Positions 6,988 to 27,793 of a stretch of 49,914 bases of DNA are shown piece after piece. Location: the IMG/VR virus record IMGVR_UViG_3300037247_000915, positions 1-49,914 of that record; one strand, given 5' to 3'. Below the pieces are notes generated by a model. The model searched no databases and was not told the DNA's origin. It was given only the letters and a program-made list of their open reading frames with translations. This DNA is from a virus. Numbering within the stretch: position 1 is the stretch's first letter; the number at the start of each line of letters is the position of its first letter. The translations under genes were made by a program, and so were the position numbers.

Positions 6988-7329
6988 TTGACGTCGAACG
7001 TCACATCGGGCATCGACTACCTCCAGCAGCGAGGTTGGGTCTCACTGCGGCAGTTCGCCGGGATTATTGGTGTTTCCTATCCTACTGCACACGCGATGCG
7101 TAAACGTGGTGAAGTCATCGCCATACACGTGGGTGGTACCTGGAGGATCTACACCTCTGAGGTCAGAAGGTTCATGCAAGAAGGTAACGCGAACGAACCA
7201 ACTGACATCAGAAAGCTTGCCGAAATGACAGGACGCAAGCTGCCGAGAATGACGGTGGAGGGAGAGGGCGACCCCCTCTCCCCCTTCCACAACCCGCACA
7301 TAGAACCAACCCCAGAAGAGGAAAACTAG
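6988..7329 (+). CDS. Small HTH DNA-binding protein (excisionase/MerR-type)
   Basis: A helix-turn-helix of the HTH_17 type is visible: WVSLRQFAGIIGVSYPTAH, then GGTWRIYTSEVRRFM, as in AlpA or excisionase-like regulators. The rest is a Pro/Glu-rich tail. The start is uncertain. No ATG precedes the HTH, and TTG at 6988, just after the previous stop, is the best choice, although no strong ribosome binding site is seen. Probably a transcriptional regulator, since no integrase is present for it to serve as an excisionase. Confidence 0.65.
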   Translation: MTSNVTSGIDYLQQRGWVSLRQFAGIIGVSYPTAHAMRKRGEVIAIHVGGTWRIYTSEVRRFMQEGNANEPTDIRKLAEMTGRKLPRMTVEGEGDPLSPFHNPHIEPTPEEEN

Positions 7330-7330
7330 C

Positions 7331-8083
7331 ATGGACGATCCGATCGAGCCCTTCACAGACCAGTTGCTCCAAGACGAGGAGCTCAAAGCCAAGGCACCAA
7401 CGGCGATCGTGTTACACTCGGGAGGGATCGACAGTACGACATGCCTGTACATGGCCGCGGAGGCCTTCGGACGCAAGAACATCGCCGGCTTGTCGGTCCA
7501 TTACGGACAGCGCCACGAGAAGGAAATATACCAAGCACAGGTAATCTGTCAGCAACTTGGTGTTGAGCACCACGTCGTCAAGATGACTGACCTCCCAATG
7601 TCGATGCTAACCAACCCGGATGTGCAGGTTCCATCGGCGAGCTATGAGGAGCTCGGTAAGGGCGTATCGCCAACGTACGTACCCTTTCGTAACGGGAACC
7701 TACTAAGTCACGTGACCTCGATTGCCCAAGCCCAGAGGGCATCCGCGATCTACTTCGGTGCTCATGCAGAGGACGCTCACAACTGGGCGTACCCGGACTG
7801 TACACCCGAATTCATCGGCGCGATGGCGAATGCCATCTACATCGGTACGTACCACCAAGTACGTCTGATAACTCCACTCGAGTGGCTAACGAAGCACGAG
7901 ATCATCAGAGCCGGCAATGCACTCGGGATCCCTTGGAGCCTCACCTGGTCGTGCTATAAGGGCGAGGAGCTGCACTGCGGCACCTGCCCAACGTGCCGCG
8001 CTAGGCAAGACGGCTTCAAGGGCGCCGACACGTTCGACCCAACCTCGTACCAAACGTCACCCGACAACGACATTCCGTTCTAG
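7331..8083 (+). CDS. queC: QueC, 7-cyano-7-deazaguanine (preQ0) synthase
   Basis: Converts 7-carboxy-7-deazaguanine to preQ0 with ATP and ammonia, the last step of preQ0 synthesis. The PP-loop SGGIDS is at residues 30-35, the VPFRNGN block near 118-124, and zinc-binding Cys at 208, 216, 219 and 222 (CYKGEELHCGTCPTC). At 250 aa it has the usual QueC length and is not a Gat-QueC fusion, so the expected base is preQ0 unless a later enzyme exists elsewhere. AGAGG precedes the ATG. It is separated from QueD, QueE and FolE by five other genes. Confidence 0.96.
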   Translation: MDDPIEPFTDQLLQDEELKAKAPTAIVLHSGGIDSTTCLYMAAEAFGRKNIAGLSVHYGQRHEKEIYQAQVICQQLGVEHHVVKMTDLPMSMLTNPDVQVPSASYEELGKGVSPTYVPFRNGNLLSHVTSIAQAQRASAIYFGAHAEDAHNWAYPDCTPEFIGAMANAIYIGTYHQVRLITPLEWLTKHEIIRAGNALGIPWSLTWSCYKGEELHCGTCPTCRARQDGFKGADTFDPTSYQTSPDNDIPF

Positions 8084-8091
8084 ACGAACGG
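8075..8091 (+). other. Hairpin across the QueC stop codon
   Basis: CCGTTC (8075-8080) and GAACGG (8086-8091) form a 6-bp stem around TAGAC, with the stop codon in the loop. No T-run follows, so termination would be weak. It could limit readthrough into the secreted-protein genes. Nothing else is visible in the 65-base gap to 8149. Confidence 0.3.
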
Positions 8092-8148
8092 TCACCCACT
8101 CCCCGAACTTGTTACAATCCCTTCCAACCTCAACCAAGGTGCAGAACT

Positions 8149-8583
8149 ATGTTTAAGAAGATCATACAAAGCTACATCGCCTTTGCGTTGGCAATGTACG
8201 TGCTCGTCGGTGTTACCCCTACGTACGCGACAAACGGAGAAAGAGGAGATCTCTTCAACACCCACACAGTAGGAACCGATATTGCTCCGATTGTCGTGAC
8301 AATCCCTGGTATGGCAGGGCAGCAGGTGCACCTATACAGAGTCATTGCCAACTGTCGTGTTGGTTTCGCGACCCTCACCATCCATGATGGGACCACAAAA
8401 GTCTACGACAGCATCGTTACCGTACAAAGGCCTCGTAGAGAGTTCAACTGGGATGTCCCGTTTACTACTTCACTAGGCAACAGTATGACGGTAACACTCA
8501 ACGCTTGCAGTGTCGTTCCGGCTATTGGTGCTACCGGAGAGATGAGCATCGAAGCCGATCGTCACTTGCCGCATGGAAACTGA
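8149..8583 (+). CDS. Secreted beta-rich protein, first of a tandem pair (144 aa)
   Basis: Function not recognised. A signal peptide is visible (MFKK, a hydrophobic stretch to about residue 22, then PTYATNG, with likely cleavage after YA). The mature part is beta-rich and holds IVVTIPGMAGQQVHLY, which aligns with VVVTITGVANQNVHLY in the next protein, so the two are paralogues. Two Cys in the mature part (ANC and NAC) could form a disulphide. AAGGTG lies ahead of the ATG. Export by a phage gene amid DNA-modification genes is unusual. A cell-surface or periplasmic role is inferred. Confidence 0.75.
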   Translation: MFKKIIQSYIAFALAMYVLVGVTPTYATNGERGDLFNTHTVGTDIAPIVVTIPGMAGQQVHLYRVIANCRVGFATLTIHDGTTKVYDSIVTVQRPRREFNWDVPFTTSLGNSMTVTLNACSVVPAIGATGEMSIEADRHLPHGN

Positions 8584-8593
8584 GGAGACCATC

Positions 8594-9043
8594 ATGAACG
8601 TACGTAAGTTACTACCTCACATCGCAGTTTTTACCATTGCTCTTGCCATTGGACTTTCCGGTGTCAATTGGAGCCAAGCGGCACATACCGATCGGCCGGA
8701 TTCGTCCCAGAAGCACTATTCCCAGCAAGGTGGGACGATCACGAACTCTACAACCACGTCTGCCACTGATACTGCAGTCGTCGTTACGATTACCGGCGTC
8801 GCAAACCAGAACGTCCATCTGTACAGCATCGATGTGATTTGCAGTGCAGGGACATCGATGGTAACTGTTGACGACGGTGTCACTGAAATCTACAGCAAGC
8901 CTGTGAAAGCGAGTCCCAACCAAGAGCCGCGGAGGTGGATACCACCATTGACGATGGACGACGGCAGCGACGCCGTAGTGACGCTGGCAACCTGCGGATC
9001 CGGCAACACGGGAACGCTCATCGTCCAAGCCGACCGTTGGTAA
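8594..9043 (+). CDS. Secreted beta-rich protein, second of a tandem pair (149 aa)
   Basis: Paralogue of the preceding gene, with unknown function. An in-frame ATG at 8573 exists, but ATG 8594 has GAGGAG (8582-8587) at proper spacing and begins a normal signal peptide (MNVRKLL, hydrophobic core, SQAAH). The mature half shares the VTITG-Q-VHLY strand pair, a DDGVTEIYS segment matching HDGTTKVYDS, and two Cys at similar places (VIC and ATC). Divergence is high, so the duplication is old. It follows the first copy by 10 bases. Confidence 0.75.
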   Translation: MNVRKLLPHIAVFTIALAIGLSGVNWSQAAHTDRPDSSQKHYSQQGGTITNSTTTSATDTAVVVTITGVANQNVHLYSIDVICSAGTSMVTVDDGVTEIYSKPVKASPNQEPRRWIPPLTMDDGSDAVVTLATCGSGNTGTLIVQADRW

Positions 9044-9049
9044 AGCGTT

Positions 9050-9457
9050 ATGACACGTAAGAACTCCAATAGATCCAAGCCTAGCTACGTGAGAAGGCTA
9101 GGCTTGGAGAGGGCGGTGAAGTCAGGCTTCTACATCTTCGTCAAGGGGAAGATCCGTCCGAGCATAGCTCTAGGGTTGCCCCGTAAGGTCGTTCGCTCCC
9201 TAGCCGAGAAAGCCTGCAGAGAACGTGTAAATAGGGAGAATGTACGGGCAAATCGTAAGGCACGGAAGGTATTCCGCAAGAAGAATAAGCAGGCTCGTGA
9301 GTTCAACGACCTCGCTAACGCCATGCCGAGTTGGCAACGGCATTACTGGGCTAGACGCATTAGCAAGGACAAAGCTAGCTACGTAGGTTTGAGGCACAAG
9401 GACGTCAAGGCTTTAGCGAAGTTCATCAAAAACAACCCAACCCAACCCGAAAGGTAG
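9050..9457 (+). CDS. Very basic hypothetical protein (135 aa)
   Basis: Function not recognised. About a third of the residues are Lys or Arg, and the central stretch (residues 55-80) is a likely positively charged helix, which suggests nucleic-acid binding. There is no signal peptide, unlike the two genes before it. Start at ATG 9050 with a weak ribosome binding site, seven bases after the preceding stop. It is in the same transcript as the nucleotide enzymes downstream. Confidence 0.65.
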   Translation: MTRKNSNRSKPSYVRRLGLERAVKSGFYIFVKGKIRPSIALGLPRKVVRSLAEKACRERVNRENVRANRKARKVFRKKNKQAREFNDLANAMPSWQRHYWARRISKDKASYVGLRHKDVKALAKFIKNNPTQPER

Positions 9458-9461
9458 TCTA

Positions 9462-9860
9462 ATGGATTACACCCTATCTGGACAAGTAATCGACTGGCAC
9501 CTAACTAACGGCGGATTCTGTGATACCCCCGAGGTATACAAACATCATACCCTTCGGCTCCTCCACGAAGCAACCGAACTCTGCCTAGCCGCCGGTGCAA
9601 ATGATGTGCAGATCCTAGAGGTTTGCAACGACGAGATCAGCAAGCACCTCGAGAAAGTAGGGTGCACAACGATTGATCTCGAGAACATGGTCGAAGAGGT
9701 TGCCGACGTGGCTATCCTCCTTGAGGTGTTCGCGCAGTATACCGAGATCTTCATCGACGACGCCGTCCATGACAAGCTGGGCGTCCTACTCGAACGTCAG
9801 TGGACTGCTGATGAGCACGGAGTCCTCTGGCGTAAGAAGGAAGAGGAGCCAAGCTGGTGA
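9462..9860 (+). CDS. MazG-like NTP pyrophosphohydrolase
   Basis: Predicted all-alpha NTP pyrophosphatase that hydrolyses (d)NTPs or an altered nucleotide to the monophosphate. The metal-binding signature ExxE...ExxD is visible as HEATELC (E36, E39) and EEVADVAI (E79, D82). Length 132 aa is usual for phage single-domain forms. AAGG lies ahead of the ATG. The stop overlaps the GTG start of the next gene. Its place among preQ0 genes suggests nucleotide-pool management; substrate unknown. Confidence 0.75.
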   Translation: MDYTLSGQVIDWHLTNGGFCDTPEVYKHHTLRLLHEATELCLAAGANDVQILEVCNDEISKHLEKVGCTTIDLENMVEEVADVAILLEVFAQYTEIFIDDAVHDKLGVLLERQWTADEHGVLWRKKEEEPSW

Positions 9861-10234
9861 AGATCACCCTTTGCGGGTCAACCCGCTTCATGGAGCAATT
9901 CCACGCATGGGATCGGTGGCTCACTCTCCAAGGACACGTCGTCTATTCGGTTGCAGGACCGACTAAGCGCGATTGGGAAGTAACCGACGAGCAGAGAGTA
10001 ACCCTCAACTTGGTGTACCTTGCCAAGATTGAGGAATCCGATGCTATCCTCATCATCGACCGCCCGTTTGTACCGAAAGATGTGGAAGGTGGTGACCTTC
10101 GCAATGGTCTCCAAGCTGTAAGTTACATCGGGAAAGGTATGGAACGGGAGAGGGAATGGGCGCGCATTCGGGGTAAAACTGTCTACTATGTCGGTGGGGA
10201 GTGTTGGCTCGCACTAAGGCGGGAGTGGGATTGA
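9857..10234 (+). CDS. Nucleoside 2-deoxyribosyltransferase-like protein
   Basis: Resembles the deoxyribosyltransferase superfamily by the N-terminal KITLCGSTRF, an alternating alpha/beta pattern, EESDAILIIDRP and a C-terminal GKTVYYVGGE strand. Such enzymes cleave or exchange the N-glycosidic bond of deoxynucleosides. The short form (125 aa) is also close to DUF4406-type proteins, whose activity is not settled. The GTG start overlaps the MazG-like stop by four bases. It could help recycle or screen bases in a cell making 7-deazaguanine; this is inference. Confidence 0.65.
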   Translation: MKITLCGSTRFMEQFHAWDRWLTLQGHVVYSVAGPTKRDWEVTDEQRVTLNLVYLAKIEESDAILIIDRPFVPKDVEGGDLRNGLQAVSYIGKGMEREREWARIRGKTVYYVGGECWLALRREWD

Positions 10235-10788
10235 TGTATACCATATCGAGGGAGATTGGGATCGATGCTGGGCATCGAGTCCCAACACACGGATCCAAAT
10301 GTAGGAACCTACACGGGCATCGCTATACTATCCAGGCGATCTGTCGGTCTGAAGCCCTCCACGAGAAGGGCGAGCAGAAAGATATGGTGATCGACTTCGG
10401 TTTCCTGAAAGAGGAAATGATGAACGAGATCGACGCACACTGCGATCATGGTCTCATCCTCTGGCGTCTCGACCCACTCCTCAATCTCCTCGCACCGCAG
10501 GACGATAAGGGGTGGAAGATCCTTGACGACGCCATCGAGGCCAAAGGATACTGTACAGAAACGAACTTGCACGCGGGATTCGGGAAGCTCTATGTTATTC
10601 CGGAGATCCCAACCGCTGAGGTGCTTGCCAAGCATTGGTTCTACCGCCTGAAGGATCGTGTGGCGGATCGATCGGACGGGCATGCGCGCTTAACGGCAGT
10701 CAAGGTTTGGGAAACACCTAATTGCTGGGCAGTATACAGGGAGCATTCGCAATGGCCCGTCCGAGAAGTCGCTCCAGAAGGCCGCTGA
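10234..10788 (+). CDS. queD: QueD, 6-carboxy-5,6,7,8-tetrahydropterin synthase
   Basis: Makes 6-carboxytetrahydropterin from dihydroneopterin triphosphate, the second step to preQ0. Zinc His are at 14, 27 and 29 (AGHRVP and NLHGHRYT), with Cys23 in SKCRNLHGH as the catalytic Cys. Later family blocks are VIDFGFLK, CDHGLIL, PTAEVLA and VKVWETPNCWAVY. An upstream in-frame GTG exists, but ATG 10234 overlaps the previous stop by one base. At 184 aa it is longer than bacterial QueD (about 120), with an insertion of about 45 residues before PTAEVLA. It overlaps the HTH gene by 37 bases. Confidence 0.95.
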   Translation: MYTISREIGIDAGHRVPTHGSKCRNLHGHRYTIQAICRSEALHEKGEQKDMVIDFGFLKEEMMNEIDAHCDHGLILWRLDPLLNLLAPQDDKGWKILDDAIEAKGYCTETNLHAGFGKLYVIPEIPTAEVLAKHWFYRLKDRVADRSDGHARLTAVKVWETPNCWAVYREHSQWPVREVAPEGR

Positions 10789-11231
10789 TCGAGTTCGTCC
10801 TTGCCGAGGCTGACCGCTTTGGGATCTCGATGCAGATCCTCGAGAAACAGGCCGGCTTAGCGAAAGGGACAATCGGTAACTGGGGGCGTGACAAGTACGA
10901 GCCTAAGTTGGGGAACATTCAAGCAGCTGGAAACGTACTGGGGTATGAGCTATGTTGGAGACCGAGATACGAGACGAGTCAGAACGGAGTGGAACCTCAC
11001 GGAAGGGTCGATTTCCTGTCATTGAGCTGTTTGGCCCAACTATACAGGGCGAGGGAGCACTTGCAGGAGTCCGATCGCACTTTGTCCGTTTTGGAGGCTG
11101 CCCTTACCGTTGCAAATGGTGTGACTCCATGCACGCCGTCGACCCAGTCAAAATCAAAGCCACCGCTACTTGGTCAGGGCCAGGAGGCATCGTCGGCGCG
11201 CTCGGCAGGTTACAACCATCAAGGTGGGTGA
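10752..11231 (+). CDS. XRE-like HTH protein with long overlap into queE
   Basis: The first 70 residues hold a plausible helix-turn-helix (ISMQILEKQAGLAKGTIGNWG) followed by NIQAAGNVLGYELCWRP, as in small XRE-family regulators. Start chosen at ATG 10752 (MARPRSR). The frame does not stop after the HTH but continues to 11231, overlapping queE by 280 bases in another frame. The tail (low complexity, Ser/Gln-rich at the end) looks like a by-product of the queE reading frame. The HTH part is well supported, the tail less so. It may regulate this cluster. Confidence 0.6.
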   Translation: MARPRSRSRRPLIEFVLAEADRFGISMQILEKQAGLAKGTIGNWGRDKYEPKLGNIQAAGNVLGYELCWRPRYETSQNGVEPHGRVDFLSLSCLAQLYRAREHLQESDRTLSVLEAALTVANGVTPCTPSTQSKSKPPLLGQGQEASSARSAGYNHQGG

Positions 11232-11719
11232 CCCTATCTGGTGGTGATCCTGTCATGTGGGACCTCGGCCCACTTACAGATCTCCTCCGTCAAAAGTACT
11301 ACGTAGCAGTCGAGACCGAGGGTGCGATGTGGCGTCCTTGGCTAGAGTATTGTCAAATGGTCACGCTCTCGCCTAAGGGACCCAGCTCTGGGATGCTCGA
11401 CAAGCTCAACCACAACGTGCTGGGGCAATACGCGCAAGTGGCATCTTTCGGTGATCTTTGTCCGATTGCCATGAAGATCGTCGTCTTCAGCCTTGAGGAT
11501 CTCATGTTCGCAAGGGAGATGTTCGGACGCTATCCCATGTTCAAACCGTTCCTCTCCGTCGGGACACCCCTAAACATCCCGCACAACTCGACCAAGTTCG
11601 AAATCTGCAGCCGTATGCTGTGGTTGTTCGAGGAGGCTCTGAAGTACGACGACCTAGTCGACGCAACAATCATACCCCAGCTACACGTGTTGGCCTGGGG
11701 ACACGAAAAGGGAGTCTGA
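10952..11719 (+). CDS. queE: QueE, 7-carboxy-7-deazaguanine synthase (radical SAM)
   Basis: Radical-SAM ring contraction of 6-carboxytetrahydropterin to 7-carboxy-7-deazaguanine, the third step to preQ0. The N-terminal IELFGPTIQGEG block (from residue 24) and the Fe-S motif CPYRCKWC (C50, C54, C57) are diagnostic, with TLSGGDP and the VETEG region downstream. 255 aa. ATG 10952 gives about 20 extra residues before the conserved part. The stop is two bases before folE (CTGACATG). The overlap with the HTH gene is noted there. Confidence 0.95.
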   Translation: MLETEIRDESERSGTSRKGRFPVIELFGPTIQGEGALAGVRSHFVRFGGCPYRCKWCDSMHAVDPVKIKATATWSGPGGIVGALGRLQPSRWVTLSGGDPVMWDLGPLTDLLRQKYYVAVETEGAMWRPWLEYCQMVTLSPKGPSSGMLDKLNHNVLGQYAQVASFGDLCPIAMKIVVFSLEDLMFAREMFGRYPMFKPFLSVGTPLNIPHNSTKFEICSRMLWLFEEALKYDDLVDATIIPQLHVLAWGHEKGV

Positions 11720-11720
11720 C

Positions 11721-12305
11721 ATGGCTAACAAACTAACAAAACCCCCACGTAAGGGTATCAATCGATTTGCGAATATGGAACAGCATGTACAAGGGCTACT
11801 AATCGAGATGGGTCTCGATCCAAGGGAGTTAGGTCTCGAGGAGACGCCGAGGCGTGTGACCGCGTATCTACTGGAGTTCGTTAAGCCATTTCCTGACAAC
11901 ATCTGGACAGGCGTCTTCGACGCCGGTGGGTATTCGGGTATTATCACCCTATCGAACATTCCATTCCGGATGATTTGTGAACATCACCTACTACCGGCCC
12001 TTGGCCATGCTGCTATCGGGTACATCCCCCATAAGCAGATCCTAGGGCTGAGTAAGTTGCCCAGGCTCGTCGACGCCGTCGGCACAGAGCGACCGAGCCT
12101 GCAAGAGAAGATAACCGACAGGATCGTCGACCTCCTCGAGGAGCACATCGAGCCGTCAGGTACGATATGCGTCATCAAAGCTGAGCATACATGCGTAGCA
12201 TGCCGGGGCGTCGCAACACCCGGCATCGTTACGACTACGTCCTCCGTCAAGGGCAACTTCAGAAACGTACCCGCAGCCCGCGAAGAGTTCTTTCACCTAA
12301 TCTAA
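11721..12305 (+). CDS. folE: FolE, GTP cyclohydrolase I
   Basis: Converts GTP to dihydroneopterin triphosphate, the entry step of preQ0 synthesis. Family motifs: GLEETPRRV (39-46), zinc site CEHHLLP (C86, H88, H89), GYIPHKQILGLSKLPRLVD (100-118) and EHTCVACRGV with C158. 194 aa, usual length. GGGAG precedes the ATG. Having its own FolE lets the phage raise flux into 7-deazaguanine independently of host folate synthesis. Confidence 0.96.
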   Translation: MANKLTKPPRKGINRFANMEQHVQGLLIEMGLDPRELGLEETPRRVTAYLLEFVKPFPDNIWTGVFDAGGYSGIITLSNIPFRMICEHHLLPALGHAAIGYIPHKQILGLSKLPRLVDAVGTERPSLQEKITDRIVDLLEEHIEPSGTICVIKAEHTCVACRGVATPGIVTTTSSVKGNFRNVPAAREEFFHLI

Positions 12306-12315
12306 GGAGTCTATA

Positions 12316-12684
12316 ATGGTTAAGCCACCACCTTCAGCCCTCGGGGTCCACATTCCGGTCGAATCAGCTCCCTTGGAACCTCCTACCCCCAAACAAGACG
12401 CAACCGTAGGCATCGTATCCGCCCTCAGCGAGTTCCCTGGAAAACGGGAATACATGGGAACAATCCGGACGGCCTCGGGGGACGAGTACAAGGTCTACAT
12501 GCCAATCGTGTACGACTACGCCTGTATCGATATGAGCAAGCCAAATGCCCAATACGAGTTGGGAGCAAAGAGCATCGGCATACCGTACACTGAGTTCCAG
12601 GCCTGGGCCTTCCCCGACGCCCAACTCGTAATGAACAAGCTGTCCAACGCAATCGACATGCTTTGCCTTGGAGACAAAAGATGA
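12316..12684 (+). CDS. Unknown protein between folE and dpdA (122 aa)
   Basis: Function not recognised. It has a Pro-rich N-terminus (about 30 residues) and then a mixed alpha/beta domain with YMGTIRTASGDEYKVYMPIVYDY and a hydrophobic C-terminus. No Cys-rich or catalytic signature is seen, and it does not look like QueF or a known amidotransferase. AAGGAG precedes the ATG, and ATGA overlap couples it to dpdA, so a role in the DNA-modification step (partner or substrate handling) is possible. Confidence 0.7.
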   Translation: MVKPPPSALGVHIPVESAPLEPPTPKQDATVGIVSALSEFPGKREYMGTIRTASGDEYKVYMPIVYDYACIDMSKPNAQYELGAKSIGIPYTEFQAWAFPDAQLVMNKLSNAIDMLCLGDKR

Positions 12685-13427
12685 GTAAGTTCGCGCCAGT
12701 CGCGCCACCCCTAATGTTGTTAGACCTGAAAAGAAAAAATGCGTTAGGCGACTACCACTTACTGCTCGCCCACGACGTGGTCGCCCAGAAGGAGCTCTAC
12801 CACGAGATCTTCGACGACCTCGACGAGCAGCCTTTCATCATCATGGACAACTCCGTGATCGAACTCGGCGAACCCGTAAGCAACGAGATCATGGAGGAGG
12901 CCGTCAGGATCGTCAGGACGGACCTCGTCGTGCTGCCAGACGCCATCGCTGATCCGAAGCGAACGATCGAGATGAGTACCGAGACGGCATTGTTGTGGCG
13001 CTCTGAGGGTATCGATACTGGGTTCCTCTGCGTACCGCAAGGTACAACGATGGGCGAGTTTACCGACTGTGCCGAGCAACTCATGAAGCTGCCAGGTGTC
13101 CAAGCATGGGGCGTTCCGCGGCACGCGACCGCCAAGTTGGGAACACGTCACCATCTCGTGTACGCCTTGATGGTGCTCAAACCCATGTTCACGATGCACC
13201 TACTCGGGTTCTCCGACAACCTGGTCGATGACATCTCCGTCGCCCGTGCAACAGGTGTCAACGGCATTGACTCGGCAGTCCCAATCAGGTTAGGACTACT
13301 CGACGAGCCGTTCCACACGCACATCGACTCCCATCCGCCACGGGGCGACTACTGGGAGGCAGCAAAAGAGGCAACACCGACTGTCCTCGAGAACCTCGCC
13401 AAGATCCGTGGCTGGATTACGCCATAA
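12681..13427 (+). CDS. dpdA: DpdA-like DNA guanine transglycosylase (TGT superfamily)
   Basis: Predicted to exchange guanine in phage DNA for preQ0. The sequence follows the TGT-barrel pattern of phage DpdA proteins: FIIMDNSVIELG (D56), VVLPDAIADPKRT (D87), LCVPQGTTMGEF, WGVPRHA and HLLGFSDN, then GIDSAVPIRLG (D198). There is no zinc-binding Cys cluster, which sets it apart from bacterial tRNA transglycosylase. At 248 aa it is short. ATG 12681 (GGAGA upstream, ATGA overlap) is preferred to an upstream TTG. Assignment rests on family resemblance plus a complete preQ0 pathway next door; target sequence context unknown. Confidence 0.82.
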   Translation: MSKFAPVAPPLMLLDLKRKNALGDYHLLLAHDVVAQKELYHEIFDDLDEQPFIIMDNSVIELGEPVSNEIMEEAVRIVRTDLVVLPDAIADPKRTIEMSTETALLWRSEGIDTGFLCVPQGTTMGEFTDCAEQLMKLPGVQAWGVPRHATAKLGTRHHLVYALMVLKPMFTMHLLGFSDNLVDDISVARATGVNGIDSAVPIRLGLLDEPFHTHIDSHPPRGDYWEAAKEATPTVLENLAKIRGWITP

Positions 13428-13441
13428 CAGGGATTACTGTA

Positions 13442-15865
13442 GTGGCGACACCTAAGGAAAGAGCGTTAGCTCCAGTTCGCGCCTGTAAGAAGCGCGGTAC
13501 GAAGCCAAGGAGGCCCAAGGGATGTAAGGACTGTCCCTTCAGGGGTAAGAAGGTCGGTAACCGCGGTAAGGTCTCTGCACCGCTAATGGCAATTGGCGAG
13601 TCACCCGGTGGCCAAGAACGCTCGAAGGGCTTCCCACTAGTAGGTCCTTCGGGCGAAATCTTCTTCTCAGCCTTTCCAGAGGACGTAGACGTAGATAAGA
13701 TTGCCTATATCTCGAATGCGCTGCAGTGTCTCCCTAAGAAGTCCGCCGGTGTAAAAGACCCACAACAAATGTGGCGTGCAACGCAAAGCTGTTCGTCCCG
13801 GCTGCTAAAAGACATCAAGAAGTACCCCCGCAAGGTCATCCTTGCAATGGGTAACTTCGCAGCGGGGGCTTTATTGGGCAATTCTAACTTCAAGATTACC
13901 AAGGAGCGTGGTAAGTTGTTTACCTCTCCCCTTGCTGAGGTCGGGATCATACCGGCAGTGCACCCAGCAGCTCTCCTTCGTGGGACGGGTAACTATCGAC
14001 AGTTCGTAGCAGACGTACGTTATGCACTCCATCTATCCCAAGGTGGGGACGTCAAGAAATTCGTCAAGGCGAAAGTGTATGTTGTCAGTGATCCGGGGTG
14101 TGCGAAATCCCTTGCTAAGTTCTTGAAAACACAGCCGTATTTAGCTAACGATATTGAAGCGACTGGGCTCAGTAGACGTAGCGATAGAGTACTATGTATC
14201 GGTATTGCATATAAACCTGAGATAGTTTTCGTATTCACTCCTAATGTAATTAAGCACCTTAAACCTCTCTTCGAGTCTAAGACCCCACGATTCATCTGGC
14301 AGAACGGTAAGTTTGACATAGGGTTCCTACGTCGTGATGGGTTACCAGCTCGCGTAGACGAAGATACTATGTTGCTGTCCTACGCACTCGATGAATCCGG
14401 CGGTATTCACGGTCTGGAACAAATTAGCTCCGACCTTCTTGGTGCACCAGACTACAAGTACATGGTCAAGCCGTGGATAAAGAAAAAGGGCGACTCGTAC
14501 GACCTCATACCCAAGAAGGTGTTGTACGAATACTGCGGGATCGACGTTAGTTTGACCCTCCAGAATTTCCACATTCTACGTCCCTGGGTTAGGGAAGACG
14601 ACAACCTCGAGAAGCTCTACACTAAGGTACTGATCCCCGCATCGGAACTGTTGTATCACGTCGAGCGGGCTGGAATTCAAGTTGATCTGGAACATATCGA
14701 GAAGATCGAGCGCTTCTATCGCATCAAGAGGAATGCAGCACACTGGTACGTGGAGCGCGTCATTGGGCGGCCAATCAACCTGAACAGTCCGGATCAGGTC
14801 GCGAAGTTGCTCTACGATGACATGGGACTCAAACCCAAACGACGTGGCGAACGCTCGACGGCTAAGGAAATCCTCGAGAAACTGCCGCAGAACGGTGTTG
14901 TCAAGGCAATCCGTCGTTTCCGTAAGGCTTCTAAGGCGTACTCAACCTACGTTACTGGCATCTACAAGGTCGTTGACTCAGAAACAGGACGAGTCTATGC
15001 AACATTCAAAATCCACGGAACTCGAACGGGCCGCCTCTCTTCGGCTGAGCCAAACTTGCAAAACATTCCGCGCGAATCTCTCCTCCGCGGCATGTTTGTC
15101 GCAAGACCTGGCCACAAGCTTATCGAGATCGACCTCAACCAAGCAGAGCTTAGAAGCCTTGCGTGCCTCTCGAACGACCCAATCCTCATCGATATCTACA
15201 CATCCACCGACAGGTCAATCCACGACGAACTCGCAGTGAAGCTGTACGGGAAGGACTTCGATCACGAAGGTAAGATGCGTGCCAAGATGCTTAACTTCGG
15301 TATTATATACGGGCGCGAGGGTCCCAGTATCGCCGAACAGCTTGGTATCGCTGTGCGTGAAGGTTGGCGGATGGTTCATACATGGTTTGAAACCTTTCCA
15401 GTCGCGCACAAGTTCATTAAGGCGTGTCGTAAGTGTCCACGGCAGAACAGAACAATCACCACGACGTTTGGGAGAAAGAAACGCCATCGCATCGTCGCGA
15501 AGAGTAACCTCAAGACGCTGCAGAACGAGGCCGCGAACTTCCCACACCAGTCCATCGTCAGCGATATCACACTGCTCGCGGCGATCAGGCTGCGTCCCAT
15601 CCTGCAAGCGATCGGCGTCGAGATTGTCAACCTGATCCACGACTCTATCCTCATCGAATGTCCAGACGATCCAGCTATCATCGATGCGGCTAAGAAGTTG
15701 TGCATCGGTGTGATGGAGAGTATCGGCCCCGAATGGGGGCTTACAAGGGTACCGTTCAAGGCAGAAGGTAAGATCGGCGATCGCTGGGGTGAGGACTACA
15801 TGGAAGACGCCACACGCCCCGAACCACCCCCACCACCACCAGAACCCCTAAAGGAGGCCGCATAA
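13442..15865 (+). CDS. Uracil-DNA glycosylase / DNA polymerase I fusion
   Basis: Replicative family A polymerase with an N-terminal Fe-S uracil-DNA glycosylase-like domain. UDG part (1-200): Cys 28, 31, 96 and 117, motif GESPGGQE (52-59) and HPAALLRG (H174). The 3'-5' exonuclease (about 210-385) has DIEATGL (D237, E239), NGKFDIGFL (D292) and YCGIDVS (D368). Polymerase: motif A EIDLNQAELRS (D564), motif B RAKMLNFGIIYG (613-624), motif C HDS (733-735). Motif C normally reads HDE. GTG start; Pro-rich C-terminal tail. No helicase-primase seen beside it. Confidence 0.93.
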   Translation: MATPKERALAPVRACKKRGTKPRRPKGCKDCPFRGKKVGNRGKVSAPLMAIGESPGGQERSKGFPLVGPSGEIFFSAFPEDVDVDKIAYISNALQCLPKKSAGVKDPQQMWRATQSCSSRLLKDIKKYPRKVILAMGNFAAGALLGNSNFKITKERGKLFTSPLAEVGIIPAVHPAALLRGTGNYRQFVADVRYALHLSQGGDVKKFVKAKVYVVSDPGCAKSLAKFLKTQPYLANDIEATGLSRRSDRVLCIGIAYKPEIVFVFTPNVIKHLKPLFESKTPRFIWQNGKFDIGFLRRDGLPARVDEDTMLLSYALDESGGIHGLEQISSDLLGAPDYKYMVKPWIKKKGDSYDLIPKKVLYEYCGIDVSLTLQNFHILRPWVREDDNLEKLYTKVLIPASELLYHVERAGIQVDLEHIEKIERFYRIKRNAAHWYVERVIGRPINLNSPDQVAKLLYDDMGLKPKRRGERSTAKEILEKLPQNGVVKAIRRFRKASKAYSTYVTGIYKVVDSETGRVYATFKIHGTRTGRLSSAEPNLQNIPRESLLRGMFVARPGHKLIEIDLNQAELRSLACLSNDPILIDIYTSTDRSIHDELAVKLYGKDFDHEGKMRAKMLNFGIIYGREGPSIAEQLGIAVREGWRMVHTWFETFPVAHKFIKACRKCPRQNRTITTTFGRKKRHRIVAKSNLKTLQNEAANFPHQSIVSDITLLAAIRLRPILQAIGVEIVNLIHDSILIECPDDPAIIDAAKKLCIGVMESIGPEWGLTRVPFKAEGKIGDRWGEDYMEDATRPEPPPPPPEPLKEAA

Positions 15866-16276: not shown

Positions 16277-19200
16277 ATGGGTAAGGGTAAGGGTAAGGCA
16301 ATCACACACGAGTTGTCAGTCGACCCTGCACACGACAACATAGGCATCTTCGAGGAGGCAATAACGAAAGATGTCTGGCGTGAAAAGTACAGGTCGAACG
16401 ACGAGGAGCATCCGTACAGAAGCTTCGAGCGTGTTTGCAACGGGGTTTACAAGAACGACACGATAGCCCACAAGCATGCCGCGTTCGAGGCGATGAAGCT
16501 GGGGTTGTGGATGCCAGCTGGGCGCATACACGCGGGAGCAGGTACCAAGAAGCACGTAACATTGATGAACTGCTTTGTTAATGGTACGCTCGACGACTCC
16601 ATGGAGGGTATTTTCAAGGGGTTGACACACAACGCGCTGACCCTCCGCATGGGAGGAGGTGTGGGTACTGACTTCTCGGAACTCAGGCCTGAATTTGCGG
16701 CCCTGGGGCGCCTAGGCGAAGGTGTTTACTCCTCGGGGCCTGTGTCGTTTATGAACGTCTGGGATGCTTCGTGTACGACAATCATGTCTGCTGGCTATAG
16801 ACGCGGCGCCATGATGGGGACACTTGCAGATTCCCATCCAGACCTTCCCAAGTTCTTACGCGCCAAGATCGAGGCAAGAGTGCTTACCCAGTTCAACGTG
16901 TCCATCCTCATCTCCGCGGCATTCATGGATGCTGTCCGACACGGGGAGGACTGGGATTTGTACTTCCGGGTGCCACCTACACATAGGGACCCTATTGGAC
17001 AGTTCAAGGATGACAACGACGTTACGCAGTACATCTACGAGCGGTGTGACGCACGCATGCTCTGGGATGACATCGTAAGAACGACCTACGAGTTCTCCGA
17101 GCCGGGTGTAATCTTCATCGATCGCGTCAACGAGCTGAATAACCTAAACTACTGCGAGGACATCCGTTGTACGAACCCATGCGTAACAGGAGACACAAAG
17201 ATCCTTACCGATCGGGGACATTTACCAATTAAAGGCCTCGTAGGGAAAAGAACTAACATCTGGAATGGTGAAACATTCTCTGAGGTAGTACCATTCTCTA
17301 CTGGTATTAACGGTACGCTTAAGGTTACCTTCTCTAACGGGCAAACTGTAAAGTGTACCGACTATCATAAGTGGCTACTTTCCAATGGTAACCTTACAGA
17401 GGCAAAGGACTTACGTGTAGGTGACAAACTCGTCTACGTAGAGATGCCCACTATAGATGCGGGGGCTCTCTTTGAATTGGATGCCTACAGCCAGGGGTTT
17501 TACTGTGGTGACGGTACAAAGGACTCCGAGTATTCCAACCTGTATAAGCATGAGCAAGGAATCAGAGATAGGTTAGTTGGTAAGATCTACGATCGGAATT
17601 GTAAATCTCAACCTAGTTATAGGTGGATACATGGGAAGATGTTCCCTAAGGATTTTGTACCTACAATGGGATATCGTAAGTACTGCATCGACTGGTTGGC
17701 GGGGCTTTTAGACGCTGACGGATGCGTCTCTAAAAAGCATAGCGGAAACGTACTAGAGATTTCGGCCAAAGATCGTAACTTCCTCCGTAAGGTTGGCTTG
17801 ATGCTCAACAGGTTAGGCGTCAACTATCGGATGTGGGAAAGATCGGATGCTGGATATAAAACAGGATCTAATAACAAGACGTACTATTGCGAATCAACCG
17901 CGAGTCTTATGATCTCCTGGAAAGGTGTACACCATCTTACTAGTCTAGGGTTGGTATGTGAGCGGGTCGATCTATCAAGCTTCCAAGAGGCTCCAAAGGG
18001 GATTGCACGTGTTGGCCATCGAGTCGTTAGTATTGAGCTAGGTAAGAACGAGGAGACGTACTGTTTTACCGAACCGCTACGAAACATGGGAGTGTTCAAC
18101 GGCGTACTAGGTCATAACTGCGGCGAGCAGCCATTACCACCTCACGGGTGCTGTCTCCTCGGCGCCATCAACCTTGCACGTCTAGTACGCAGTCCCTTCG
18201 TCTGGCACGACTCCAATCTATCTGGGCCGACGTTTGACTTTGATACACTGAAGTCCGTAGTACGTATTGCCGTTAGATTCATGGACAACGTTATCGATGT
18301 CACGAAGTACCCACTACCCGAGCAGAAAGCCGAGGAGCTATCGAAGAGACGTATTGGCCTCGGTATCTCTGGTCTCGCCGACGCCATGGCGCAACTGGGA
18401 ATGCGCTACGGAAGTACCGACTCCGAGGCGTTCACTCGGCGTGTGATGCGTACAATTGCAACTGAAGCCTACACAACCTCTTCTGACTTAGCAGACGAAC
18501 GGGGTTCCTTCCCACTGTACAACCATGACAAGTTCCTCAGCAGCCCTTTCGTAAGCAAGTTGCTCCCCAACACACGCAACCTCATAGCGGAGCAGGGAAT
18601 ACGGAATGGAACGCTTCTGACGATTGCACCCGTAGGCACCGGCAGTCTGTATTACGGCGATATCTCGTCGGGCCTCGAACCGGTATTCCACTACAAGGGT
18701 AAACGCAACGTGCTACAGGCTGACGGGTCACGTAAGGCCTATGATACCGAGAACTACGGCTACAGGCTGTACCAGTCTATCCACGGTGTGTGTAGTCGAG
18801 ACGACCTCCCGGACTACATGGTAACCGCCGACGAACTGCCAGTGGGTGACCACATAAGGATCCAAGCAGCCGCACAAGAGTGGGTTGACGCGTCTGTCAG
18901 TAAGACCATCAACTGCCCGAGTGAAATCTCCTTCGAGGAGTTCATGGACGTCTACAACCTCGCGTACGACCTAGGCTGTAAAGGTTGTACTACATATCGA
19001 CCCAACCCGATGCGAGGTTCCGTACTTGAGGGCGAAGATGGAGACGATGGAACCCCGTTGGTACCCAAGCTCCCAAAACGCCCAGATACACTCGAAGGAC
19101 GCACCTATAAGATTACCTGGCCGTCGCTGCCGTCAGCACTCTATCTGACGGTCAACCGCAACGAGGAGGCTGGGGGGTTCCCGTTCGAGGTGTTCATCAA

Positions 19201-19633
19201 TTCGAGGTCGAGCCTAAACGCCGAATGGATGACGGCCCTAACCCTTATGATCTCGGCAATCATGCGGATGTCTAACGATGTTGAGTTCATTGCGCAGGAA
19301 CTCCAACAGGTAGTCTCAGCACACGACTCAGCTTGGATCGACGGTAAGTACTACGGCTCACTCGTCGCCAGAATCGGTAAAGTCCTAGGAGAGCACTTCG
19401 AGGCCGAGGGAATCCTCTCGGCAGCAGAGATACCGACTAAGCAAGAGCCCTCCCCAGCACCGCAGGAGATTAGGTCGGGAGAAACCGTAACTTTGACAAA
19501 CGGTGGGGGCGTAAAGATAACTGCAGGCGCAGGATCTACGGCCGACGTGTGCCCAGCTTGTGGAGCACCGACACTTATCCACCAAGAAGGGTGTGCTAAG
19601 TGTACCCAGTGCGATTACTCTAATTGCGGGTGA
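16277..19633 (+). CDS. nrdJ: Class II (B12-dependent) ribonucleotide reductase with intein
   Basis: Reduces ribonucleotides to deoxyribonucleotides for phage DNA synthesis. Class II signs: LMNCFVNGTLDDSM (C99), MGGGVGTDFSELRP, the TNP|CGEQPLPPHG active-site loop (interrupted by the intein), IAPVGTGSLYYG, CKGCTTYRPN, and a C-terminal zinc ribbon with CPAC, CAKC and C-terminal Cys as in NrdJ. No separate radical subunit gene is seen. Residues 302-614 are an intein; the spliced enzyme would be 805 aa. AGGAG precedes the ATG. N-terminal GKGKGK comes from a GGGTAA repeat. It implies a host that supplies adenosylcobalamin. Confidence 0.93.
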   Translation: MGKGKGKAITHELSVDPAHDNIGIFEEAITKDVWREKYRSNDEEHPYRSFERVCNGVYKNDTIAHKHAAFEAMKLGLWMPAGRIHAGAGTKKHVTLMNCFVNGTLDDSMEGIFKGLTHNALTLRMGGGVGTDFSELRPEFAALGRLGEGVYSSGPVSFMNVWDASCTTIMSAGYRRGAMMGTLADSHPDLPKFLRAKIEARVLTQFNVSILISAAFMDAVRHGEDWDLYFRVPPTHRDPIGQFKDDNDVTQYIYERCDARMLWDDIVRTTYEFSEPGVIFIDRVNELNNLNYCEDIRCTNPCVTGDTKILTDRGHLPIKGLVGKRTNIWNGETFSEVVPFSTGINGTLKVTFSNGQTVKCTDYHKWLLSNGNLTEAKDLRVGDKLVYVEMPTIDAGALFELDAYSQGFYCGDGTKDSEYSNLYKHEQGIRDRLVGKIYDRNCKSQPSYRWIHGKMFPKDFVPTMGYRKYCIDWLAGLLDADGCVSKKHSGNVLEISAKDRNFLRKVGLMLNRLGVNYRMWERSDAGYKTGSNNKTYYCESTASLMISWKGVHHLTSLGLVCERVDLSSFQEAPKGIARVGHRVVSIELGKNEETYCFTEPLRNMGVFNGVLGHNCGEQPLPPHGCCLLGAINLARLVRSPFVWHDSNLSGPTFDFDTLKSVVRIAVRFMDNVIDVTKYPLPEQKAEELSKRRIGLGISGLADAMAQLGMRYGSTDSEAFTRRVMRTIATEAYTTSSDLADERGSFPLYNHDKFLSSPFVSKLLPNTRNLIAEQGIRNGTLLTIAPVGTGSLYYGDISSGLEPVFHYKGKRNVLQADGSRKAYDTENYGYRLYQSIHGVCSRDDLPDYMVTADELPVGDHIRIQAAAQEWVDASVSKTINCPSEISFEEFMDVYNLAYDLGCKGCTTYRPNPMRGSVLEGEDGDDGTPLVPKLPKRPDTLEGRTYKITWPSLPSALYLTVNRNEEAGGFPFEVFINSRSSLNAEWMTALTLMISAIMRMSNDVEFIAQELQQVVSAHDSAWIDGKYYGSLVARIGKVLGEHFEAEGILSAAEIPTKQEPSPAPQEIRSGETVTLTNGGGVKITAGAGSTADVCPACGAPTLIHQEGCAKCTQCDYSNCG
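17180..18118 (+). mobile_element. Intein with LAGLIDADG homing endonuclease in nrdJ
   Basis: 313-residue insertion (precursor residues 302-614) exactly before the Cys of the CGEQPLP active-site loop. It begins CVTGDTKILT (Cys1, block A), has a block B-like region around VKCTDYHKWLL (TxxH-like, His present) and ends in VLGHN followed by Cys+1, so all splice residues are intact. A LAGLIDADG motif is clear (DWLAGLLDADG, about residue 473); the other copy is degenerate (QGFYCGDGTKDS). Codon use is more AT-leaning than the extein. Insertion at the most conserved site is typical for inteins. Confidence 0.95.
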
Positions 19634-19638
19634 CCAAC

Positions 19639-19932
19639 ATGACCAACACCGAAGCAATCGAGAAGCTGATCACGTCACTACGGCGTGCAATGCTAGACAT
19701 GAATGCCGCTACCGAAGCCCTAATGGATCAGTCAGAAGGTTCCACTGGGGTGCTACGGCTCATCAGGGGTGGGGTAGGATGTCGCCACCATTGGATGTCG
19801 TACGAAAGTAACAGTTGCCCAATATGCACCCTTATCACGATATCCAAGCACGCAACCTGCTGCAGCGCACAGCGTATCGCGAACAATGCGCTGAAAGGTA
19901 AGAAAGGACCCATGCCATGGCCAAACGACTGA
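19639..19932 (+). CDS. Small Cys/His-containing hypothetical protein (97 aa)
   Basis: Function not recognised. Residues about 45-75 hold CRHHW, CPIC and CC, a possible metal site. A GTG at 19630 overlaps the nrdJ stop (GTGA) and could be the true start by coupling; ATG 19639 is preferred, with GGGTG 6 bases ahead. It overlaps the protease gene by 16 bases in another frame. Confidence 0.55.
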   Translation: MTNTEAIEKLITSLRRAMLDMNAATEALMDQSEGSTGVLRLIRGGVGCRHHWMSYESNSCPICTLITISKHATCCSAQRIANNALKGKKGPMPWPND

Positions 19933-20462
19933 CGCTAAGCTTCCGGACGGGAACACCTCCGCAATGGGAGAAGTTCATCAAGGAGTATTCAGACCAAGTT
20001 TGCGAAGTCGACTGTCCAAGTCAGGTACGAGTTACACTGAATGATGCACGCTGGCGGCTAATGTGTGCCGTCCAACGTGAGGTCAACATGACCACTCGGT
20101 ACGTACGCGACCCAGAGGGCAACGACCATTGGAAACTTCTACTTGCCAAACGGGGAAATAAGGGAGACTGTGAGGACTTCGCCCTCACAAAGCGTGCATT
20201 ACTCCTAGAGGCTGGGTTTCCAGTGGGTGCCGTCTGGCCAGTAATATGTATGGAGAGAGACGTACCCCATATGGTCACAGTAGTCTCGACCACAAAGGCA
20301 GACTACGTAATGGATTTTGGCTGGCACAACTGGGTATACGACGTCACTGACTCTACACTGAAGTGGCTGTCCGCATACGACGGACAGTTCTGGCGTCTTG
20401 TATCGACGACTATACAAATGGATGCCGTATCAGACGGCCCTAAGCTGGATTCAAGATCCTAA
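19917..20462 (+). CDS. Transglutaminase-like cysteine protease (BTLCP type)
   Basis: A Cys-His-Asp triad is visible: GDCEDFAL (C85), VPHMVTVV (H118) and YVMDFG (D133), the pattern of bacterial transglutaminase-like cysteine proteinases. No signal peptide, so it would act in the cytoplasm or be packaged. 181 aa. AAAGGA lies 8 bases ahead of ATG 19917. Last gene of the rightward block; its stop overlaps the end of the leftward structural operon by four bases. Natural substrate unknown. Confidence 0.75.
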   Translation: MAKRLTLSFRTGTPPQWEKFIKEYSDQVCEVDCPSQVRVTLNDARWRLMCAVQREVNMTTRYVRDPEGNDHWKLLLAKRGNKGDCEDFALTKRALLLEAGFPVGAVWPVICMERDVPHMVTVVSTTKADYVMDFGWHNWVYDVTDSTLKWLSAYDGQFWRLVSTTIQMDAVSDGPKLDSRS

Positions 20463-25846: not shown

Positions 25847-26182
25847 TCAATAGGGTGGTATACGAGGAGGCAACCGCTCCAAGATTCGCTCAAGCGTACG
25901 ACTGGTCTTGCCTCGAAACTCGGCATTCCACTTGCTCTCGGACTCTATGCGCTCGATTAGGGCGCGTTGCTGAGCGGTCATCTCACCGATCTTTGCCTCG
26001 ATTGTCTCGACGCTTTTTCGATTCTCGTCGGCCTTCTTCTCGGTTGCCCGTACGTCAGCGTAGAGTAGTGTACCGGTGAACGTACCTACTACTAGAAGTC
26101 CGAGTGCCGTAGACACATGGCGTACGAGAGTTGGTGGAACACCATTGTAGAGCTGTTTCAGTCCGTTTTTCCTATCCATCAT
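25847..26182 (-). CDS. Membrane-anchored coiled-coil protein (111 aa)
   Basis: One transmembrane segment (about residues 23-42) followed by a long coiled coil (45-100, Lys/Glu/Arg with hydrophobic heptads) and a Pro-rich end. This is the layout of an i-spanin or of some small phage lysis regulators. AAGGT precedes the first of two Met codons. It is the first gene of the lysis cassette, 15 bases before the endolysin. i-spanin is the favoured but unproven role. Confidence 0.65.
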   Translation of the reverse strand: MMDRKNGLKQLYNGVPPTLVRHVSTALGLLVVGTFTGTLLYADVRATEKKADENRKSVETIEAKIGEMTAQQRALIERIESESKWNAEFRGKTSRTLERILERLPPRIPPY

Positions 26183-26269
26183 GCGACCTTATGTTTGAGT
26201 TCAATACTAAATTGGGTATGAACGTTCTCGTTCGGATTACAGTAGAGCCACTACGGTGTTCGTCAACTC

Positions 26270-26727
26270 CTAAGCGGGCCAAGGCGTGCCGTCGCCGAAG
26301 GGGTCGGCGGCGGTGGGGTCGATGGCGTCGAGCTCGGCCTGATCTACAATTGCAGCTAGCTTCGGCGGAACGGTGTCGCGGACGTAGAGGTAGATGTCCT
26401 TGGCCCTCGTTTGCGCTACAGTGGCATTGCTGGCGAGATGAGACGCCCAGATCCCGGCTACGGTCTTGATCTGCTCCAAGCTATCCCAATCTCTCACCTC
26501 GACGGCGATCCGCGTCACGGCCTCGGCGATGAAGCCGTCCCCCTTCGCCCGTTTGAGTACGGCGAGGCTCGGCCCTGGAGGCGCCGCGAAGACCGCACCG
26601 TCGTAGGACCAGCCAATCTCGGGCTGTGGGGTCACCCCGGCGAGATCGGCCCAAGTCATGGCCGGCGCAACTGGAAATTCAGCGGCAGAAATCTGGACCA
26701 CAAGGTTTTTGAAGACAAGTGCAAACA

Positions 26728-26731
<4 letters not shown>
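26270..26731 (-). CDS. Putative tail fibre assembly protein (153 aa)
   Basis: It follows the glycine-rich fibre with an ATGA overlap, the usual place for a fibre chaperone. The N-terminus is beta-rich (MMFALVFKNLVVQISAAEFPVAP), a WADLAGVTPQPEIGWSYDG segment is followed by AAPP, and the C-terminus ends DPFGDGTPWPA. This layout (short strand, then W-Y-dG motif, then helical end) resembles small fibre-assembly proteins, but no specific family is certain. An upstream ATG at 26743 is less likely, because GGGAG sits 5 bases before 26731. GC-rich like the fibre gene. Confidence 0.65.
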
Positions 26732-27756
<1,025 letters not shown>

Positions 27757-27793
27757 GTTTTACACTCCCGTATTATGGTTAAGTGTCATCTCG

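Follow-up and report, generated by a model that had tools for sequence, protein, structure and literature searches.

A preQ0 biosynthesis cluster with a predicted short DpdA-like DNA transglycosylase in an uncultivated phage

Introduction

The question raised by this locus is whether a phage both synthesizes preQ0 and puts it into its own DNA, and whether a short protein encoded beside the preQ0 genes may act as the inserting enzyme. The stretch of DNA analyzed here (in the following the window) comprises 49,914 bases, is linear and represents an uncultivated phage from IMG/VR record IMGVR_UViG_3300037247_000915. Both its ends are open, each being cut within a gene. The minus strand carries portal, terminase, tape-measure and tail-fibre genes and the plus strand the replication genes. 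For the first 20 kb no close phage DNA relative was found in the phage collection searched.

dPreQ0 was measured in the DNA of two phages, Escherichia phage CAjan and Mycobacterium phage Rosebush, where it goes along with the minimal set FolE, QueD, QueE, QueC and DpdA (PMC6884629). Like these two phages the window encodes FolE, QueD, QueE and QueC together with a predicted TGT-fold insertase, and no amidotransferase was found in it.

Organization of the cluster

The plus strand shows the order QueC, QueD, QueE, FolE and a 248-aa protein, followed 15 bases further on by DNA polymerase A. All five proteins are uninterrupted frames located where the first-pass annotation had placed them. The features are:

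6994..7329, plus strand: small helix-turn-helix protein just 5' of queC (HTH_17, 2.3e-7)
7331..8083, plus strand: queC, preQ0 synthase, 250 aa, no fused amidotransferase (Gat) domain (PF06508, TIGR00364, 2pg3 alignment)
10234..10788, plus strand: queD, 6-carboxytetrahydropterin synthase, 184 aa, carrying an insert (PF01242, TIGR03367)
10952..11719, plus strand: queE, 7-carboxy-7-deazaguanine synthase (radical SAM), 255 aa (TIGR03365, phrog_2076, 5tgs)
11721..12305, plus strand: folE, GTP cyclohydrolase I, 194 aa (PF01227, zinc residues of 11yz)
12681..13427, plus strand: short DpdA-like DNA-guanine transglycosylase, predicted insertase, 248 aa (fold, profiles, residues)
13442..15865, plus strand: DNA polymerase A with an N-terminal uracil-DNA-glycosylase (UDG)-superfamily domain (PF00476, PF03167)

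The ATG of queD at 10234 overlaps the stop of the preceding ORF and the 248-aa frame starts with ATG at 12681. ORFs similar to the helix-turn-helix protein occur in 26 related loci, and judged from its position it is a possible regulator of the preQ0 cluster.

Several further genes of the window deserve mention. A ribonucleotide reductase (barrel and TSCPD domains) at 16277-19633 is split by an intein that contains a LAGLIDADG endonuclease, and a transglutaminase-like cysteine proteinase (Peptidase_C93, 4.9e-20) is located at 19917-20462. The region 26001-28000 is GC-rich (65% vs about 54%) and contains, on the minus strand at 26728-27756, a glycine-rich, tail-fibre-like protein.

Enzymes of preQ0 biosynthesis

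The first-pass annotation had described FolE, QueD, QueE and QueC as present with intact active sites, and this description holds for family models as well as for active-site residues matching solved structures, all four members of the pathway having their catalytic and metal-binding residues. QueC matches PF06508 (2.5e-60) and exceeds the cut-off of the NCBIfam model TIGR00364; its SGGxDS motif (PP-loop) and four zinc cysteines match 2pg3 by alignment. FolE belongs to GTP cyclohydrolase I (PF01227, 1.1e-48), with an equal E-value of 1.1e-48 in NCBIfam, and its CEHH motif and second zinc cysteine match 11yz by alignment. QueD is recognized by the PTPS/QueD family of Pfam (PF01242, 3.6e-31) and, under the cut-off, by NCBIfam TIGR03367 (9.6e-19). 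Its HGH and DH align with 7v0f, and CRNLHGH, as read from the sequence, represents the C-x3-HGH motif. QueE remains slightly under the cut-off of NCBIfam Bsubt_queE (TIGR03365, 3.4e-57, 193.7 vs 206.1 bits); it also matches phrog_2076, and its CPYRCKWC motif (CxxxCxxC) could be aligned onto 5tgs. Falling under the strict whole-protein cut-offs of NCBI is common among diverged phage proteins.

Searches of the window revealed neither QueF nor a classical member of the TGT family, and no amidotransferase is fused to QueC. Among 50,697 phage records only 326 match the QueC of the window at all.

The short DpdA-like protein

Direct searches gave little information about the 248-aa protein: there was no match in Pfam, only weak matches to uncharacterised families in PHROGs, no meaningful match in the PDB with phmmer and no match of the single sequence among viral contigs. 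Its relatives in cultured phages share 20-37% identity. A search of IMG/VR with their alignment yielded at least 369 coding stretches, and from these the best 80 loci were retained. In bacterial genomes almost no relatives were found. A short DpdA with 40% identity occurs in a 59-kb contig of a Sulfurovum MAG (JALTVI010000070.1, 6001-6777); this contig probably belongs to a phage and was binned together with the bacterial sequences.

The NCBIfam DpdA model NF041059 is matched by 13 of 54 aligned relatives (best 3e-6) and the general TGT model by only one of them. For the window protein itself NF041059 yields 12.1 bits (E 0.063), which does not reach the curated cut-off of 200 bits, and even the best relative stays far under it. 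The experimentally supported DpdA of phage 9g also remains under this cut-off with 13.9 bits, so phage DpdA is not covered by the cut-off, which cannot fairly serve to define the wider family. The best PDB match of the family profile is the DNA-guanine transglycosylase 7ui4 (E 0.048), over HLLG and IDS-x-x-P. Comparison by hhalign with 9g DpdA, alone or together with three relatives, was not significant apart from one partial match, and with DpdA2 of Vibrio phage nt-1 (YP_008125322) it gave a probability of 14% over 28 columns. The profile of the 248-aa family found no match in the records of 9g, CAjan, Rinkes or nt-1. ORF 00384 of VH1_2019, initially guessed to be a DpdA2, turned out to be QueD.

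The AlphaFold (AF2) model of the protein, based on 53 alignment rows, has a pLDDT of 96.1 and a pTM of 0.92. In a Foldseek search of the PDB the first six ranks are all occupied by TGTs (1iq8, 4.5e-9), human TGT follows at rank 8 and 7ui4, named 'DNA preQ0 insertase DpdA', at rank 9 (3.7e-5). With TM-scores in a moderate range (0.50-0.67), and with other TIM barrels appearing at rank 7 and again from rank 10 onwards, the fold by itself is insufficient to settle the identity. In BFVD the nearest entries are an uncultured phage protein (2.5e-14) and a Cellulophaga phiST protein (5e-14), with nt-1 DpdA2 (R9TGF0) and several phage queuine tRNA-ribosyltransferases lower in the list. With high confidence the predicted structure is a TGT-type barrel. 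The initial naming of this protein as DpdA-like is therefore upheld by its predicted barrel, its preQ0-gene context and the NF041059 matches of its relatives; neither membership in an unrelated family nor lack of the TGT fold was found.

In the 53-row alignment D56 (MDNS), D87 (LPD), R156, H173 and G176 (HLLG) and D197 (IDSA) are invariant, and Q120-G121 is invariant or nearly so. The six former residues are kept out to the proteins of phiST, immuto and the Bacillus and Vibrio phages. D56, D87, H173 and D197 are colinear with D72, D114, H196 and D215 of 9g DpdA, an equivalence deduced from the order of the motifs rather than from superposed structures; the position of H196 was confirmed by residue count. 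D197 is likely the equivalent of the TGT nucleophile, as judged from these motifs. In TGTs this nucleophile is followed by a C-terminal zinc site of three cysteines and one histidine. The only cysteines of the 248-aa protein, C117 and C130, are both located N-terminally of D197; since no cysteine cluster follows D197, a TGT-type zinc site is missing. The histidine corresponding to H196 is conserved in DpdA and absent from DpdA2 (Hutinet and colleagues, PMC6884629), and with H173 present the 248-aa family sides with DpdA on this mark.

Genomic context among relatives

The 80 uncultivated viral loci were retrieved through the short protein alone and include some near-duplicates, so that the following counts do not all represent independent events. 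In 53 of these loci at least about 5 kb of upstream sequence is available, and within the fetched stretch QueC was found in 50, QueE in 50, QueD in 48 and FolE in 41 of them. In the three loci without a nearby QueC the record contains both QueC and QueD at another position, which means that all 53 loci have QueC encoded in their record. In 75 of 79 loci of relatives the gene immediately 3' of the short DpdA encodes DNA polymerase A. Such recurrence of order and linkage, in loci found by the short protein alone, is not due to chance. Together with the near-absence from bacteria the linkage with preQ0 genes points to a phage enzyme tied to preQ0, as is expected of an insertase.

The polymerase of the window (13442-15865) combines PF00476 (7.3e-74) with PF03167 (6.6e-15), and its UDG domain shows the motifs GESPG and HPAALLR. 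A fusion of this kind is present in nearly all short-DpdA loci (76 ORFs contain both domains). Phages such as SP-15 and phiLo, too, have similar UDG domains.

Additional ORFs are interspersed between queC and queD. Two adjacent look-alike proteins with signal-peptide-like starts (8149-9043) match no family, and the fetched loci contain no relatives of them. Before queD, at 9462-10234, lie the genes of a MazG-like NTP pyrophosphohydrolase, which matches phrog_2245 weakly, and of a 125-aa protein; neither is generally conserved among relatives. The spacer ORFs at 8149-9860 were rejected as parts of the core cluster since relatives are without them, and the ORF at 9857-10234 was likewise rejected, similar ORFs being present in only two of the loci compared.

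Proposed function and alternatives

We suggest that this cassette very probably serves DNA hypermodification in a tailed phage, preQ0 being made and then put into DNA by the predicted short DpdA. The route from GTP to preQ0 is an established pathway to which the enzymes of the window are assigned by homology: FolE would convert GTP to dihydroneopterin triphosphate, QueD would form carboxytetrahydropterin, QueE 7-carboxy-7-deazaguanine and QueC finally preQ0. Fold and residues suggest that the 248-aa minimal TGT-type barrel would then act on DNA after replication. D197 would attack a selected guanosine at its deoxyribose, and preQ0 would take the place of the departing guanine. With neither QueF nor a fused amidotransferase found in the window, dPreQ0 replacing some guanines is the best prediction; it would most likely stay in this form and hinder host restriction enzymes at the modified sites. 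This supports the reading of the first-pass annotation, which had predicted preQ0 or a derivative in the phage DNA. Chemistry, density of the modification and protection from restriction are predictions here. Avoidance of restriction sites gave no clear signal in the window (757 6-mer palindromes observed vs 769 expected), with GGCC being mildly low (188 vs 250). Against this function of the cassette it counts that sequence similarity to 9g DpdA is by itself not significant, that the zinc cysteines of TGTs are absent and that the ORFs between the cluster genes are unaccounted for.

The most serious alternative that remains is the same cassette with another final base, i.e., insertion of 7-carboxy- or 7-amido-7-deazaguanine, or tailoring by an unrecognised enzyme. 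The short-DpdA family is accompanied by FolE and QueD in the absence of QueC in Cellulophaga phage phiST and by QueF in Flavobacterium phage immuto, so that it may accept different bases. Moreover, the window is a fragment and a further tailoring gene may lie beyond its ends. Work published in 2023 on further phage 7-deazaguanines and on the DpdA structure reportedly describes additional DpdA subfamilies as well as 7-carboxy-7-deazaguanine in Cellulophaga phage DNA. For the phage investigated here we nevertheless consider another base unlikely, as its QueC is intact with catalytic residues and QueC accompanies the family in each of the 53 informative uncultivated relatives.

Far less probable is a route in which a deoxyribosyltransferase and kinases would supply a modified dGTP that is incorporated by the adjacent polymerase A, the short barrel being an accessory only. 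The authors of PMC6884629 proposed a modified-dGTP route in Campylobacter phages, and both the position of polA directly 3' of the short gene and the resemblance of the ORF at 9857-10234 to a nucleoside deoxyribosyltransferase, noticed by eye and with no Pfam match, would be in line with it. This ORF is, however, not a core component, the short barrel retains the TGT/DpdA catalytic set, and the cluster of the related phage 9g, with its dpdA, likewise adjoins DNA replication genes. A role in tRNA queuosine formation, in which more preQ0 would reach the host TGT while the short barrel itself acts as a phage tRNA TGT, appears just as improbable: the best fold matches are tRNA TGTs and preQ0 is a queuosine precursor too, but no QueF was found in the window, the zinc-site cysteines of TGT are absent while the DpdA histidine H173 is present, relatives match the DpdA model over the TGT model (13 vs 1 of 54), and the linkage to a DNA polymerase gene is constant.

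Relation to known systems and significance

The system proposed here, synthesis of preQ0 and its insertion into DNA, is itself of an already-known kind, with the insertase being a minimal and diverged branch. With its 248 aa the predicted enzyme is shorter than DpdA of 9g (317 aa) and of mycobacteriophage Rinkes (290 aa). It resembles the bacterial DpdA 7ui4 in the barrel and in the HLLG and IDS-x-x-P motifs but is shorter (7ui4 has 413 residues in the structure and 436 in the chain) and originates from a phage. In common with nt-1 DpdA2, which was found by structure comparison, it has a TGT fold and a preQ0 cluster; in contrast with this 464-aa protein, which is without the conserved histidine, the short family keeps it.

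According to sequence and residues the proteins of the Brevundimonas phages MaInes and StAshley, Weizmannia phage Youna2, the Bacillus phages BSP7 and BSTP, Cellulophaga phage phiST and Flavobacterium phage immuto belong to the same family, their identity to the window protein being 22-35%. In most cultured relatives the short gene is likewise located between preQ0 genes and polA; phiST, being without QueC, and immuto, with its QueF, differ from the window in gene content. Matches to QueF in Youna2 and BSTP12 were located inside FolE genes and taken as cross-matches. The short DpdA proteins of cultured phages are mostly annotated as hypothetical or misnamed and seldom recognised in genome annotations. 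That of Bacillus phage BSTP12 (MW354678.1, 20682-21470; 7824-8612 of the fetched locus) is labelled 'NADR_SALTY trifunctional NAD biosynthesis/regulator protein', which seems to be an annotation error, whereas the depositors of the immuto group already use 'DNA guanine transglycosylase'.

Only tentatively, and with considerable doubt, can the short protein be regarded as a distinct minimal class of DNA transglycosylases of about 250 residues that would be devoid of the zinc site, widespread in uncultivated phages and coupled to a polymerase A with UDG domain, with the inserted base varying along with QueC or QueF. The signature MDNS, LPD, HLLG and IDSAxP together with the profile makes an insertase branch recognisable that is nameless in Pfam and PHROGs. 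It predicts 7-deazaguanine DNA in Brevundimonas phages MaInes and StAshley, Weizmannia phage Youna2 and Bacillus phages BSP7 and BSTP. If it acts on DNA, so small a TGT-type barrel would lend itself well to studies of how this fold chooses its sites in DNA.
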